Virus record (IMG/VR): IMGVR_UViG_3300022602_000167
Coordinates: 1-45,853 of that record
Origin: a virus
Length of the DNA stretch: 45,853 nucleotides
Reading direction: 5' to 3' (one strand)
In this document: positions 1 to 43,410 of the stretch, piece by piece
How positions within the stretch are numbered: the first letter of the stretch is position 1
How the letters are laid out: every line of letters begins with the position of its first letter
Position numbers and translations under genes: made by a program
Notes under the pieces: generated by a model
What the model was told of the DNA's origin: nothing
Databases searched by the model: none
What the model saw: the letters and a program-made list of their open reading frames with translations, nothing else

Positions 1-1247
1 ATATTAATGATTTTATCAAATATATAGGACGTAAACCTATTAGCGGTGATGTCATAGAGTTACCGCATTTACGTGATGATTTTGCCCTAAACAGTTTTGA
101 TTTTAGCTTGCCTAGATACTATGTTATTGAAGATGTAGGTCGTGCATCGGAAGGATTTAGTGTTACTTGGTATCCACATTTATATAGACTACGAATTAAG
201 CGCATTACTGATAACCAGAAATTTGCCAGCATCTTTAACGAATCTGCTAAAGATGCTAACGGAGATCCTGTAGCCAATACAAGTCTACGCGATTTGTTAA
301 GTATGTACAACACTGAATTAAATATCAACGATCAAGTGGTTGCACAAGCTGAAGCAGATGCTCCAAAAAGTGGTTACGAAACAAGACAATTTTATACACT
401 AGCAGTTGATCCTACAAATGGTAAACCTGTTTTAACAACTGCGGACGAAACAGATATTCTAGCCAGTACAGTTGCACAAAATATCAATGCTAGTGCCACA
501 GCAGGTGTACCACAACGTAGTGGATATACCGGTTATTTGTTAGGTGATGGTTATCCAGACAACGGATATGAATTTGGGTTTGGTATACAATTTCCGGCTA
601 ATCCGCAAAACGATGATTTTTTCCTACGCACAGATTTTATGCCTAACAGATTATTCCGTTTTGACGGGGTTGCAAATACATGGGTAGCTTATGAAGATAG
701 TGTACGTATGAATATGACTAACAACGACACACGTAGTACATTAAAAACTGGATTTATCAATAATACAAATTATTTGTACAATGAAAAACTAGCCGCAGAT
801 GCGGTTAAATTAACGGCAAACGCTACTATTGTACAAACTCATGTACCATATACACTTGCTACTGCGGCCTATGTAGTATTGAAATATCAAACTACACAAC
901 TAGAATACGCACTAGCAGATAATCCAACTACCTTATATTCTAGTTACAACTACACTAATCCACAGACCAATGTTACTACAGCTTGTATACAGATTAATCT
1001 ACCAATGATTCCTACTAATGTTACTGTAGTAGATGGTGCTGGTGCTTTCCAAAGTTTCCCACCAAGTACAACACAAATTGAAGATGGTGGATCTGCAGGG
1101 TCGGGTGTACCAGCAGTTGTACTAGACGACACAAACGGTCAAGAAGTTATACCCGCAACTGGTATTTGGACTGTAACATTCTATAACAACCGAGACGAAC
1201 AACGTCAAAGTATCAGTAAAGTACTTAAACCTAGGGCAGATTTCTAA
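1..1247 (+). CDS. Neck protein, gp14-like (5' end outside window)
   Basis: This is the C-terminal part of a virion structural protein. The frame is open from base 3, so the TTG at 108 is not the true start; the reading begins INDFIKYIGRKPISGDVIEL. Early segments (GDVIELPHLRDD, then YYVIEDVGRASEGFSVTWYPHLYRLRIK) and later ones (FFLRTDFMPNRLFRFDG, the VRMNMTNNDTR stretch and the ending QSISKVLKPRADF) fit a neck/head-completion protein of marine T4-like phages, which I recall as gp14. That protein joins the portal vertex to the tail. The next gene is a gp15 homologue, which is the T4 order 14-15 and supports the call. It is longer than T4 gp14 (about 256 aa), so the exact equivalence is inferred. 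Its stop codon overlaps an ATG at 1247 that opens only a 14-codon reading frame. Confidence 0.6.
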   Translation, partial: INDFIKYIGRKPISGDVIELPHLRDDFALNSFDFSLPRYYVIEDVGRASEGFSVTWYPHLYRLRIKRITDNQKFASIFNESAKDANGDPVANTSLRDLLSMYNTELNINDQVVAQAEADAPKSGYETRQFYTLAVDPTNGKPVLTTADETDILASTVAQNINASATAGVPQRSGYTGYLLGDGYPDNGYEFGFGIQFPANPQNDDFFLRTDFMPNRLFRFDGVANTWVAYEDSVRMNMTNNDTRSTLKTGFINNTNYLYNEKLAADAVKLTANATIVQTHVPYTLATAAYVVLKYQTTQLEYALADNPTTLYSSYNYTNPQTNVTTACIQINLPMIPTNVTVVDGAGAFQSFPPSTTQIEDGGSAGSGVPAVVLDDTNGQEVIPATGIWTVTFYNNRDEQRQSISKVLKPRADF

Positions 1248-1273
1248 TGCATATTTACAAATTTACACATTTC

Positions 1274-1303
1274 AAGGAGGTTACGGTTTAACACCGTAGT
1301 ACT
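1274..1303 (+). promoter_or_regulatory. Strong Shine-Dalgarno plus hairpin before gp15
   Basis: A perfect AAGGAGG lies at 1274-1280. It is followed by an inverted repeat, TACGGT (1282-1287) and ACCGTA (1293-1298), with loop TTAAC. The in-frame stop TAA (1289-1291) is in or at the edge of the loop. If the hairpin folds, only about 6 nt separate the Shine-Dalgarno from an in-frame ATT at 1304. T4 gene 38 is a known case where a hairpin brings a distant Shine-Dalgarno close to its start codon. That this works here, with a rare start codon, is inference. Confidence 0.45.
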
Positions 1304-1417
1304 ATTATTCAGTTCTTCTACGATGGTCAGATAAGACGATATATCACACAAGTTATTCGTGTATTCAGTAACTTTGTAGTTAGATACGGCGATGGTAGTT
1401 TACATCGCATACCAGTT

Positions 1418-2791
1418 ATGTATGGTGATCCAGATCGTCAAGTGGCCAGCATCATACGTCAAAACAGTGAAAATGTTGTTAATAGTGTACCACGTATTGC
1501 AGTCTATGTTGAAAGCCTAAGTTTAGATCGTAGTCGCTTGGCTGACCAAACATTTGTAGATAAAGTACATATTAGAGAACGTGACATTAATGAAAACACT
1601 GGGTCTTACACGCAAGGACAAGGTCGTAATTATACAATTGAACGTTTAATGCCTACTCCTTTTGATCTTAAACTAAAAGTAGATATTTGGAGTTCAAGCA
1701 CTGAACAAAAATTGCAAATACTTGAACAAATTTTAGTATTGTTTAATCCTAGTTTAGAATTACAAACCACCGACAACTATATCGACTGGACCAGTTTGAC
1801 TGTGTTAGAATTAATGGATGTAAATTGGAGTAGTCGTACCGTGCCTGTGGGCAATGATAGCGGTAACGATATTGCTACACTAAAAGTTCAAACTCCTATA
1901 TGGATTAATCCACCAGCTAAAGTAAAACATCTTGGAGTTATTACAAAAATTATTACAAGTGTATACGGCAGTGTGGAATCAAGCGGAACTTATATTGAAG
2001 GTCTAGGACAAGATCCATTAGGCGAAACATTAAGTTTTGGCGATTTGATTGACACCAATATTACTACTATTAGCAATTTTAAAATAGAAGTATATGCAAA
2101 TAGCGTAACAGCTCTAGCAGATGGGGCTGGAGTCGATCCTAGCGAACCCACACTTGATCCTGCTCCTACAAGAGTAGGTAATACTGTAGATTGGAATCAA
2201 GTTTTTAGTGCTTATCCTGGAAAATATGTAGCAGGATCGAGTCAAATATTTCTAACACAGCCAGATGGCACTCAAGTTATTGGAACCATTGCTGTAAACA
2301 GTTTAGATAGTAGTCAATTGAGTGTTAATTGGAATCCAGACACATTAATTAGCAACACAGGAATTGATAGCGCTGGCATTCTACAAAATATGCCCGGTTA
2401 CAATGTCGCTGTTAGTTATCGTCCTACTAGCCCTGGCACATTTGATGCTATTATTAATCCATTAACTTATGATCCATATCGTCCTACAGGTACAGAACAA
2501 TCAGATCAAACTATCAGTGTAGGTCTACGTTTCTTGCTAGTTGAAGATATAGGCAATGCAAACAATGTTACACCTGCACATGCTTGGGGTAGTTTAGTGG
2601 CTTATGCTAATGACATTGTAGAGTGGACTGGTACTGCATGGCATGTAGTTTTTAATTCAAGCCAGTTTCCTGACACTATGGTATGGCAAACGAATACATA
2701 CACTAGTGTTCAGTACATGTGGAACGGTGTCACATGGACTAAGAGTTTTGAAGGTGAGTACGATCAAGGATTATGGAGAATAGAATTGTAA
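1418..2791 (+). CDS. 15: Tail completion and sheath stabiliser protein, gp15-like
   Basis: In T4, gp15 caps the finished tail and attaches it to the head. The call rests on the same order of motifs as T4 gp15: an aromatic FFYDGQIRRY start (T4 FYNSSFRRY), RIPVMYGDP (T4 RVPITYASK), RNYTIERLMPTPFDLKLKVD, a PxQL-type LNPSLEL segment and the late PIWINPPAKVKHLG. The first ATG is at 1418, but the conserved N-terminus is encoded upstream in the same frame from about 1304 (IIQFFYDGQIRRYITQVIRV...). No ATG, GTG or TTG occurs between the stop at 1289 and 1418. The real protein therefore probably starts near 1304 from a rare codon, or the start has been damaged. The C-terminal half, from about residue 230, is longer than T4 gp15 and contains a WNxVFSAYPGKY segment. 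The 3' end overlaps the NUDIX gene by 19 bases. Confidence 0.72.
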   Translation: MYGDPDRQVASIIRQNSENVVNSVPRIAVYVESLSLDRSRLADQTFVDKVHIRERDINENTGSYTQGQGRNYTIERLMPTPFDLKLKVDIWSSSTEQKLQILEQILVLFNPSLELQTTDNYIDWTSLTVLELMDVNWSSRTVPVGNDSGNDIATLKVQTPIWINPPAKVKHLGVITKIITSVYGSVESSGTYIEGLGQDPLGETLSFGDLIDTNITTISNFKIEVYANSVTALADGAGVDPSEPTLDPAPTRVGNTVDWNQVFSAYPGKYVAGSSQIFLTQPDGTQVIGTIAVNSLDSSQLSVNWNPDTLISNTGIDSAGILQNMPGYNVAVSYRPTSPGTFDAIINPLTYDPYRPTGTEQSDQTISVGLRFLLVEDIGNANNVTPAHAWGSLVAYANDIVEWTGTAWHVVFNSSQFPDTMVWQTNTYTSVQYMWNGVTWTKSFEGEYDQGLWRIEL

Positions 2792-3222
2792 CAGAACAGA
2801 TAGTGTGTAGCGGAGCATTGTTCTACGCTAAATCTACACGACGATTCTTACTGTTACAAAAAGCTCACGGTAAACATGAAGGTACTTGGGGCTTAGTTGG
2901 CGGTACTAACATACAAGGCGAAACTCCTTGGCAAGGTCTAGTTAGAGAAATCAACGAAGAAATTGGTCCTTGTCCTGAAATAATCAAAACAATTCCTCTT
3001 GAAACTTTTGTCAGCAACGACAAAGTGTTTAATTTTCACACCTACTTATGTGTAATAGATAAAGAATTTGTCCCTGAACTCAGTGACGAACATCAAGGAT
3101 GGTCGTGGGCTACTATAGATCGCGCACCAAAACCTCTTCACCAAGGGTTGCGTAACAGCTTTAGCAGTAAAACTATTCGCACAAAACTACAGACAATATT
3201 TGATTTGGTAGATTTAATTTAA
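2773..3222 (+). CDS. NUDIX hydrolase
   Basis: This 149-residue protein has the NUDIX signature at residues 44-66: G(x5)E, seven residues, then REINEEIGP. It agrees with GX5EX7REUXEEXGU except for the last hydrophobic position, which is proline. Family members cleave nucleoside diphosphates linked to another group, using Mg2+ bound by the glutamates of the box. The substrate cannot be read from the sequence; mutated nucleotides, ADP-ribose-type compounds or capped RNA are all possible. HGKHEGTWGLVGG before the box is typical of the fold. The start overlaps the end of gp15 and has AAGGATT just before it, so the two genes are probably translationally coupled. It heads an accessory stretch inserted after the structural gene. 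Confidence 0.88.
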   Translation: MENRIVTEQIVCSGALFYAKSTRRFLLLQKAHGKHEGTWGLVGGTNIQGETPWQGLVREINEEIGPCPEIIKTIPLETFVSNDKVFNFHTYLCVIDKEFVPELSDEHQGWSWATIDRAPKPLHQGLRNSFSSKTIRTKLQTIFDLVDLI

Positions 3223-3231
3223 AGGATTATA

Positions 3232-3846
3232 ATGACAGCATTTCCAACATACAATTGGTGGTTAAAAACAACTACTAACGAAACATACGCTTTTTTAAAA
3301 GAAGCGTTTACTCCTGAGGAGTGTGCTAAGATTATAGAAATTGGAGAAAATCCAGATACTGCAAGTGTAGGATCGCCATCTATTGCTGGTGGCAAAATTA
3401 ATGATACTATTAGAAAATGTAGCCTAAACTGGATACGCAGTGACATTGAAGAAAACAAATGGATTTTTCAAAGATTGTCTGCTATTGTTCCAAAAATCAA
3501 TGAACAATTTTTTAATTTTGATTTGGAATATTTTGAATCATTGCAGTTTACAAAATATGAAGCTAGCGAAGATGAAACAGCTACTGATGATTTTTATTCT
3601 AAACACATCGACATGTTGTACTCCGGAGTCACTACTAGAAAGTTAAGTTTTACAATCCAATTAAGCGATCCTGAAACTTATGAAGGCGGAGATTTGCGTA
3701 TTCACTCAGGTAGCGAGCACACAATTCCTCGAGATCAAGGAACATTTACAGGGTTTCCGTCGTATATACTACATGAAGTAGAACCAGTAACTAAAGGAAC
3801 ACGTTACAGTCTTGTAGGTTGGGTTTGCGGAGCAAGATTCAAATGA
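3232..3846 (+). CDS. 2OG-Fe(II) oxygenase, prolyl-4-hydroxylase/PiuC-like
   Basis: This 204-residue enzyme probably hydroxylates a protein or small molecule using 2-oxoglutarate, oxygen and Fe(II). The likely iron ligands are H125 and D127 (KHIDM) and H181 (ILHEVEPV). R191 (KGTRYSLVGWV) is well placed to bind 2-oxoglutarate. EGGDLRIHSG before the distal histidine is the usual GGxL strand of PKHD-type hydroxylases. The N-terminal WWLKTTTNETYAFLKEAFTPEECAKII helix is normal for the class. An AAAGGA Shine-Dalgarno precedes the ATG. Its stop overlaps the ATG of the next oxygenase (ATGA), so they are co-translated. The substrate is unknown. Confidence 0.85.
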   Translation: MTAFPTYNWWLKTTTNETYAFLKEAFTPEECAKIIEIGENPDTASVGSPSIAGGKINDTIRKCSLNWIRSDIEENKWIFQRLSAIVPKINEQFFNFDLEYFESLQFTKYEASEDETATDDFYSKHIDMLYSGVTTRKLSFTIQLSDPETYEGGDLRIHSGSEHTIPRDQGTFTGFPSYILHEVEPVTKGTRYSLVGWVCGARFK

Positions 3847-41546: not shown

Positions 41547-43331
41547 TTAACCGTTATCGATCTTAACTGAAGTGTTTAGCACTGCTGAACCAAATGTCCA
41601 GTTAACTACTGATCCACTTGTAAACTGTGTACCAGTATTAGCTGTAACACGGCAACGACGGTTAGTAATCTTAGTTACCCAGTATGTACCACCAGCTGAG
41701 TCAACAGCATTGATAGCCATTTGACCTGCTGTAGTTGGAAGAGCGGCAATTAACTTGCAATAAGCTGTACCGTCTTGATTCTCAATTTTAAAACGTTGAT
41801 AGTTTTCTTGTTTGATAATAGTTGAATCTTGACGTAGTGTTGATCCAACTGTGATAGCTTGTGCAAGCATAGCTGGATAACGACCTGAATAACCAGTAGT
41901 TACTTCAGAAGCTACAACTGCTGTTACAACACCGCCTGAACCAGTACCGCCAGTTACAGCTACAGTCAAGTACTGACTACCGACACCTGTTGTACTAGTA
42001 ATTGAAGCTGTTGTAGTTGTTGAAACTACAGTGCTTGTAAAGAAGTTTGCATAGCTTGACGCTAAACTAATTTGACTTGTTGCGGCATTAACTGCAACTA
42101 CAAAGTAAGTACCTGCGGCATAACCTGCACTTGAAGCACCTGAACCTGTAATTGTAAATGCTTGACTTGGAACTAGACCATCTACTGTACTTACAGTTAA
42201 TGTACCACCAGTTGTTAATGTTAAACCAGTTACTGTACCAGCTGTTGTTACAACTGCTGTTGATGGTAAAGCTGTTGCGCTGGTTAATGATGACAATGTA
42301 ACAGTTGAAGTACCATTAGTTGCAGTAACAATATAGTTGTTACCTGTTGTATAACCTGTCCAAGTTGTACCACTGATAGAACCAGTTGCTGTTAGAATTT
42401 GTCCTACCCAGAATGTACCAGCGGCTTGTGCTGTACCAAAAGTAAAGTTACCACTTGTACCAACTGTGATAGTACCTAAACTTGTACCAGTTGCACCATA
42501 ACCAGCGCCTGCTGTTGCGGCAGTAATGTTTACAGTTCCAGTTGATCCAACAAGATATCCGTTACCAGCTTGTGTAACTGATACGTTGTTAATGCCCCAT
42601 TGACCTACAGCAATAGTATTACCTGCACCGCTTGATAATGAACCAGTTGCGGCTAATGCTGATGTAGTAATAGTTCCTGTGCTACCGCTTAGATATACTG
42701 CGCTAGTAATTGCACCAGCTACTGTACCAATTGTAACTGCACCGTTACTGATTGCTGTTGAACCGCCAGTAAATGTAATTGCTGTACCAGCAATAGCGTT
42801 AGCATAGCTAGATGCTAGTGTTACTGTTGTTGAACTTGAAGTTGTTGCGGCAACATAATATGTTGTACTTGCGGCTAAACCTGATGTAGTTGTAATCGAA
42901 GCGCCAGTAATAAAACTAGTACCTTGAATATAACTACCACTTGTAACTGTTACTGCTGTACCGTTAGTAGCAGTAATTGTGTTACCACTTACTGTTGCTA
43001 GTGTTGGAGTAAATTTAATACCAGTTGTTGCTTGTGTAATTACATCAGTTGCTAGATAAGCTACTGTTGCTGTACCAGCTACTGTAATTTGACCAGATAC
43101 TGGTGAAAAATATGGAGTACCTGTTGCACGAGTTGCACCTTCACCAGTCATCAATGGAACTGAAAATAACAATGTTGGAGTTGCAGTATATGTACCTGCT
43201 GTTCCTACTGTTGCACTTGCTATGCTTGCTCCGCCTAAATCAGCATCGCCTGCTGTGTTTGCGGCACCTAAATTGCCGTCTGCGCCGCGGTTACGTGCGC
43301 CTAAATATTTTTTGTTTAATGGACGTCCCAT
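41547..43331 (-). CDS. Virion structural protein, MGRPLNKKYxG family (594 aa)
   Basis: I set the start at the ATG at 43331, because AAGGAG lies 7 nt before it and MGRPLNKKYLGARNRGADGN is a conserved start in marine T4-like phages. The open frame could extend to 43400, but without support. The middle is rich in Thr/Ser/Gly and has a GTYTATPTLLFSVP strand and several YYV modules (TTYYVAATTSSSTTVTLASS). The C-terminal part is the family's signature: IIKQENYQRFKIENQDGTAY, INAVDSAGGTYWVTKITNRR, and VNWTFGSAVLNTSVKIDNG. Position next to gp23 suggests a capsid or neck decoration, which I cannot confirm. A candidate CATAAATA promoter lies 80 bases upstream. Confidence 0.8.
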   Translation of the reverse strand: MGRPLNKKYLGARNRGADGNLGAANTAGDADLGGASIASATVGTAGTYTATPTLLFSVPLMTGEGATRATGTPYFSPVSGQITVAGTATVAYLATDVITQATTGIKFTPTLATVSGNTITATNGTAVTVTSGSYIQGTSFITGASITTTSGLAASTTYYVAATTSSSTTVTLASSYANAIAGTAITFTGGSTAISNGAVTIGTVAGAITSAVYLSGSTGTITTSALAATGSLSSGAGNTIAVGQWGINNVSVTQAGNGYLVGSTGTVNITAATAGAGYGATGTSLGTITVGTSGNFTFGTAQAAGTFWVGQILTATGSISGTTWTGYTTGNNYIVTATNGTSTVTLSSLTSATALPSTAVVTTAGTVTGLTLTTGGTLTVSTVDGLVPSQAFTITGSGASSAGYAAGTYFVVAVNAATSQISLASSYANFFTSTVVSTTTTASITSTTGVGSQYLTVAVTGGTGSGGVVTAVVASEVTTGYSGRYPAMLAQAITVGSTLRQDSTIIKQENYQRFKIENQDGTAYCKLIAALPTTAGQMAINAVDSAGGTYWVTKITNRRCRVTANTGTQFTSGSVVNWTFGSAVLNTSVKIDNG

Positions 43332-43410
43332 TTGTTTTCTCCTTAAGTGACGTTCTAGGTCAATACGCAGTGGGTAACTGCATAAACTTGCCCAATGCAA
43401 GCTGACAATG

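Follow-up and report, generated by a model that had tools for sequence, protein, structure and literature searches.

A degraded homing-endonuclease cassette at the start of phage gp15 and its probable replacement of the AUG start by a hairpin-bridged AUU codon

Organization of the gp14/gp15 junction

The window, the whole 45,853-nucleotide stretch of viral DNA analysed here, carries near its beginning a gene in the gp14 position that matches a PHROG family annotated as virion structural protein, followed by gp15. The features of the junction are the following.

1245..1249, + strand: TAATG, the stop of the upstream gene together with the ancestral gp15 ATG (read from the sequence)
1247..1291, + strand: endonuclease-remnant reading frame of 14 codons, MHIYKFTHFKEVTV*, whose stop TAA (1289-1291) lies inside the hairpin loop
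1250..1309, + strand: 60-bp insert between the ancestral ATG and gp15 codon 2 (CAG), delimited by comparison with relatives
1274..1280, + strand: Shine-Dalgarno sequence AAGGAGG, with the core GGAGG at 1276-1280
1281..1299, + strand: putative bridging hairpin, stem 1281-1286/1294-1299, 7-nt loop 1287-1293
1300..1306, + strand: 7-nt linker from the hairpin to the candidate start codon, defined by the spacing in relatives
1307..1309, + strand: candidate gp15 start codon AUU, from the codon restriction across 89 junctions
1307..2791, + strand: gp15, tail sheath stabiliser and completion protein, about 494 aa (PF16724, PHROG)

The TAA of the upstream gene (1245-1247) overlaps the ATG at 1247-1249, which in the window is now the start of the remnant reading frame. 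From 1292 onwards the gp15 frame is open. Its conserved N-terminus, QFFYDGQIRRY, is coded from CAG 1310, and the window contains no ATG, GTG or TTG in this frame between the stop at 1289 and the ATG at 1418. An earlier note on this DNA had described a gp15 devoid of a usual start codon with QFFYDGQIRRY coded from about 1310, a perfect AAGGAGG at 1274-1280, and an ATG at 1247 that overlaps the gp14 stop and reads 14 codons into the TAA of a hairpin; direct reading agrees with all of these. The hairpin with a stop at its loop, also proposed there, folds at -7.2 kcal/mol with the loop UUUAACA, and its stem covaries in relatives (see below). The calculated RNA duplex between the Shine-Dalgarno and anti-Shine-Dalgarno sequences is worth -10.7 kcal/mol. 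The window contains no tRNA gene that could explain odd decoding. Downstream, the last part of gp15 is overlapped by a NUDIX hydrolase gene (PF00293), behind which comes a 2OG-Fe(II) oxygenase gene (PF13640), the two spanning 2773-3846. A complete Rfam RF02980 freshwater-2 RNA (61.8 bits) at 43329-43402 on the minus strand fits a freshwater origin of the phage.

Identity and N-terminus of gp15

The gp15 frame matches PF16724 (T4-gp15_tss) with an E-value of 3e-21, phrog_11196 (E 4e-77) and phrog_227 (E 4e-19). Comparison of the N-terminal coding region of the window with those of three relatives gave 7.0 synonymous changes over 22 sites and 2.0 nonsynonymous changes over 80 sites (L001), 11.5 over 23 and 7.5 over 79 (L008), and 15.0 over 22 and 5.0 over 80 (L013). 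The synonymous excess in each pair argues for purifying selection and thus for translation of this region.

An endonuclease cassette separates the gp15 ATG from codon 2

Among 80 relatives fetched by protein similarity, five of which were not scored for the start codon, ATG stands directly before gp15 codon 2 in 65 and TTG lies at or adjoining that place in 7, leaving L001, L008 and L013 as the only relatives with no standard gp15 start. The ancestral arrangement, retained in most relatives, is TAATG followed directly by codon 2 (ATG-CAR), and in the three exceptions an insert lies exactly between the ATG and codon 2, with a length of 60 bp in L001, as in the window, 51 bp in L013 and a greater length in L008. 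Four additional IMG/VR contigs (L085, L089, L092 and L096) carry the insert of the window type. Insertion is site-specific, the insert being absent from most relatives and, when present, always placed between ATG and codon 2. No copies of the 3' module described below were found in isolated phages or in GTDB genomes, the latter searched by exact pattern, and all of the support comes from IMG/VR contigs.

The source of the insert was missed in the earlier note, whose reading of the hairpin and the Shine-Dalgarno sequence stands. In L093 and L094 full-length GIY-YIG endonuclease reading frames occupy the insertion point, starting at the ATG of gp15, beginning with MHIYKFTH and ending with NKEATV* or EKEASV*. 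Both contain the GIY-YIG catalytic domain PF01541 above cut-off, and the full-length frames are also matched by PHROG homing-endonuclease families. The full endonuclease of relatives (loci L093, L094 and L101-L122) measures about 170-190 aa, and a protein search recovered 31 endonuclease loci, most with the same 3' module and some with shortened reading frames. Taking L093 (MHIYKFTH...YNKEATV*) as the reference, the frame of the window joins the endonuclease N-terminus HIYKFTH to the C-terminal tail KEVTV, with the middle deleted; as only 14 codons are kept, it is a remnant and not an endonuclease. The elements form a series that starts at full length and descends via 63 aa in L008, 44 aa in L127 and 11 aa in L013 to MEASV* (L147, L182), and some retain no endonuclease at all. 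In 39 distinct mini elements and 10 partial ones, reading from an ATG stays in frame up to the stop in the loop, L131, L204, L252 and L225 being exceptions; a binomial estimate against a null of 1/3 is very small, in a calculation that ignores shared ancestry. By its sequence, therefore, the 60 bp of the window is a degraded GIY-YIG homing-endonuclease cassette. A self-splicing intron was rejected, as the window has no Rfam intron match and the insert has just 60 bp (51 bp in L013).

The same insertion site displays several 3' solutions. In L107, L111, L120 and L113/L117 an endonuclease is present and the hairpin is absent, gp15 starting with ATG (L107, L111), GTG (L120) or an ATT 7 nt past the Shine-Dalgarno sequence (L113/L117). 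Conversely, one and the same 3' module is found behind endonucleases with differing C-terminal domains (...KLVDGKRVW... in L093 versus ...EEIYGPE... in L106 and L130), which suggests domain swapping beside a fixed module.

Conservation of the Shine-Dalgarno-hairpin module

Searching for the pattern, both including and omitting the hairpin sequence, yielded 89 distinct junctions. Common descent and exchange of cassettes link these junctions, and the counts given here are not numbers of independent events. The module has a constant order, in which GGAGG or a near variant directly abuts the first strand of a 6-bp stem; the 7-nt loop, the stem partner, 7 nt, a codon and gp15 codon 2 come next. The loop is mostly UUUAACN and has 6 nt in one group. 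Among the stem sequences are CAACAG/CUGUUG, CAAUAG/CUAUUG, CGUCGG/CCGACG and CGACAG/CUGUCG. Across 40 distinct sequences the stem columns are paired in 83.8% of cases, against 73.6% after shuffling, and all six pairs, including pair 2, which is frequently a mismatch, show compensatory changes on both sides. The covariation score was reached by none of 500 shuffles and was lost when the partner was slid by 1-3 columns. The folding energy in the window has a z-score of -1.25 and is alone not significant; the significance of the hairpin derives from this covariation in relatives and not from its energy.

The linker between hairpin and codon is 7 nt in nearly all elements and 8 nt in L247. In a type that is 1 nt longer (L244, L246) the extra base is bulged in the stem (CAGCGG/CCG-A-CTG), and the G and the following 7 nt are kept. 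In the window GGAGG (1276-1280) lies 26 nt from AUU 1307, of which, by computation, 7 nt are left when the hairpin is folded. In several lineages a further in-frame stop codon, UGA, lies past the hairpin and ahead of the start. A pseudoknot pairing loop UUUA with linker UAAA was discarded, as it fits UAAA linkers only.

Choice of the gp15 start codon

The codon 7 nt past the hairpin is strongly restricted. It is ATT in 24 of the 89 junctions, ATC in 20, ATA in 18, TCG in 26 and ATG in one (L186), with no other codon found, although the searches left this position free; AUU, AUC and AUA thus make up 62 of 89. The codon directly before it, equivalent to 1304, varies freely, which favours 1307 over 1304. 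AUU 1307 is therefore the most likely start of gp15 on comparative grounds. The earlier note had considered an ATT start at 1304, with about 6 nt left after folding; initiation at ATT is retained here, and the position moves to 1307, at 7 nt when the U.G pair 1281-1299 is counted in the stem. Candidate UUG, AUG or CUG starts adjoining the hairpin were dismissed, since they are not in frame and the window, like other elements, lacks them.

Two features fit the AUU, AUC or AUA assignment less well. To our knowledge UCG is not a known start codon. It occupies the start position in L106, L112, L121, L130, L140, L234, L244 and others. Every UCG element has an AUC overlapping the UCG or just upstream (AUCG or AUCUCG), and the hairpin-free search returned no match to a UCG start. 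Against the assignment also stands AUG, the best possible start, which is used in only one of the 89 junctions. Its avoidance might stem from immunity to the endonuclease, which possibly recognises ATG together with codon 2, or from the need for a weak start beside a strong Shine-Dalgarno sequence.

Hairpin-free relatives as a natural control

A distinct group of phages lacks both the hairpin and the endonuclease. Here the upstream stop runs into GGAG, followed by seven nucleotides and AUU, AUC or AUA, and gp15 has no in-frame ATG, GTG or TTG. One of the 19 junctions listed, L149, was excluded because it carries the hairpin; in all 18 remaining distinct junctions the spacing from GGAG to the codon is exactly 7 nt, where 4-10 were allowed. 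In contrast, among AUG junctions retrieved by this pattern only 3 of 30 show a 7-nt spacing (Fisher p ~2e-10). L113/L117 combine a full endonuclease with the hairpin-free GGAG-N7-AUU arrangement. The coincidence of 7 nt in both classes, once the hairpin is looped out, is the strongest argument for a start at AUU, AUC or AUA and for the hairpin as a spacer. Hairpin-free gp15 genes with GGAG-N7-AUU/AUC/AUA and no standard start codon are found in L281-L310, and non-AUG starts of gp15 reach past the endonuclease cassette.

Proposed mechanism and alternative explanations

Taken together, the sequence comparisons make it likely that the endonuclease took the ATG of gp15 and that a Shine-Dalgarno sequence and a spacer hairpin set the ribosome on AUU 1307. 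A promoterless GIY-YIG gene entered gp15 directly behind its start codon and ahead of codon 2, capturing the ATG, and the 3' end of the cassette would have brought a substitute initiation region, in which GGAGG abuts a 6-bp hairpin followed by 7 nt and a near-cognate codon. Folding of the hairpin would shrink the gap between Shine-Dalgarno sequence and start from 26 to 7 nt, so that a 30S subunit bound at the Shine-Dalgarno sequence would set its P site on AUU 1307, and the product would be fMet-QFFYDGQIRRY..., the native N-terminus. Ribosomes translating the upstream frame would stop at the loop UAA, hence not overrunning the gp15 start, and may feed re-initiation; that a stop is preserved within the hairpin or immediately past it suggests that upstream ribosomes must halt there. 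In the window the endonuclease has decayed in frame to 14 codons, and we propose that the 3' module was kept because gp15 depends on it. The comparisons show the insertion and its endonuclease source, the hairpin with its fixed spacing, the restriction of the codon and selection on the N-terminus of gp15; from these we infer initiation at AUU 1307, a spacer role for the hairpin and a feed from termination into initiation. Among the options raised earlier, the comparative data support hairpin-bridged ATT initiation of the T4 gene 38 kind.

That gp15 is a dead gene, or that its start reflects faulty assembly or sequencing, is favoured by nothing other than the unusual start itself and has a negligible probability; the earlier note had listed a mutation or assembly error. 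The same insert in four further contigs and the like architecture of 89 junctions, an arrangement that recurs in dozens of contigs, refute an assembly error and argue against chance. It is scarcely more credible that gp15 begins at ATG 1418 with the preceding part untranslated in the window lineage. That ATG is the first standard start codon past the in-frame stop, but the codons 5' of it show purifying selection and a conservation that extends to T4-type gp15, Met at the equivalent position is missing from several element-bearing relatives (e.g. VPVRYGD in L103), and the relatives, for which the earlier note had named a start at this point as refuting its reading, use the native ATG just 5' of the QFFYDGQ codons. 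Translational bypassing in the style of T4 gene 60, with take-off at GUU-UAA and re-pairing downstream to give a fusion of remnant or endonuclease with gp15, takes up the hairpin bypassing listed in the earlier note and has in its favour a stop after a sense codon, a hairpin at the stop, a Shine-Dalgarno-like element, a neighbouring homing endonuclease and the frame kept to the loop stop in the 39 mini and 10 partial elements. It is nevertheless very improbable, since GUU, which precedes the stop in most elements, has no cognate landing codon in the gp15 frame of the junctions inspected, several lineages (L143, L198, L148, L140, L254, L238) lack an ATG in that frame or an endonuclease, L238 has lost the loop stop, and the hairpin-free class retains the same start codons. 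UCG-to-UCG and ACG-to-ACU pairings fit subsets only, and no in-frame GUN follows the GUU-stop. Stop readthrough is excluded by the second in-frame UGA in the lineages that have it, and a +1 or -1 frameshift at GUU-UAA was rejected because the other frames close quickly.

Termination-coupled re-initiation as the main route, in which ribosomes ending at the loop stop stay on the Shine-Dalgarno sequence and restart 7 nt past the hairpin with relaxed codon choice, is compatible with the preferred explanation and deserves some weight, even if we lean against it. The strong retention of a reading frame ending in the hairpin speaks for it, as do L225 and L222, which lie outside the usual frame and still stop just past the hairpin; it would ease the UCG problem, and 70S ribosomes that have terminated are able to initiate at non-canonical codons if RRF is inactivated (PMC2268962). 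On the other hand, some lineages have no ATG-started frame into the loop, the endonuclease remnants are out of frame in L131, L204 and L252, and the upstream stop of the hairpin-free class lies 14 nt before the start. Somewhat more doubtful is the idea that remnants persist as homing-resistance alleles, in which the missing AUG would confer endonuclease immunity and the module would work with Ile codons and even UCG. If true, it would include bacterial initiation at UCG, or AUCG as a four-base start.

Comparison with known systems

In T4 gene 38 an intervening structure reduces the Shine-Dalgarno distance from 22 to 5 nt, and in gene 25 from 27 to 11 nt, both before an AUG start (PMC3014915). 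The gp15 junction, also of a T4-like phage, is similar in that a hairpin between a too distant Shine-Dalgarno sequence and the start would collapse the spacing. It differs in the start codon (AUU, AUC, AUA or UCG), in the origin of the module as the 3' end of a homing-endonuclease cassette, in the upstream frame that stops inside the hairpin and in the gene served, gp15. As with T4 mobA and gene 60 (PMC5009743, PMC2988022), an endonuclease lies in an essential gene and an RNA device would keep that gene expressed; the gene 60 device perhaps shields the gene from the nuclease (PMC5009743). In contrast to mobA/gene 60, the gp15 case involves a GIY-YIG and not an HNH enzyme and insertion at the start codon, and the rescue would proceed by a new initiation site and not by ribosome hopping. 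The mobE insertion in nrdA of Aeromonas phage Aeh1 and the T4 seg and mob genes (PMC2988022) are likewise promoterless free-standing cassettes on upstream transcripts in essential genes, but in gp15 the protein is not split and only the start codon is replaced.

An AUU or AUA start beside an extended Shine-Dalgarno sequence is shared with E. coli infC (AUU) and S. aureus cvfC1 (AUU) and ccpN (AUA), and in S. aureus such starts give about 10% of the AUG level (PMC13009471). The infC-type arrangement, a near-cognate codon at proper Shine-Dalgarno spacing with no standard start, is found in the window and in the hairpin-free relatives. Unlike infC, cvfC1 and ccpN, which have no bridging hairpin or mobile element, the arrangement described here is conserved in a phage structural gene. 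A limited literature search found no paper on the gp15 element.

Significance

The proposed mechanism would mean that a selfish gene can occupy an essential gene without a splicing element, by taking its start codon and returning a portable initiation module. The junctions offer split ribosome-binding sites in dozens of natural versions, for which the 7-nt spacing of the hairpin-free class serves as an internal control, and they make the long-standing idea that a hairpin between Shine-Dalgarno sequence and start is simply looped out directly testable. The UCG starts are raised as a question. For the phages themselves, the finding points to conserved and widespread non-AUG initiation of a structural gene, which standard gene callers would mis-start or miss.
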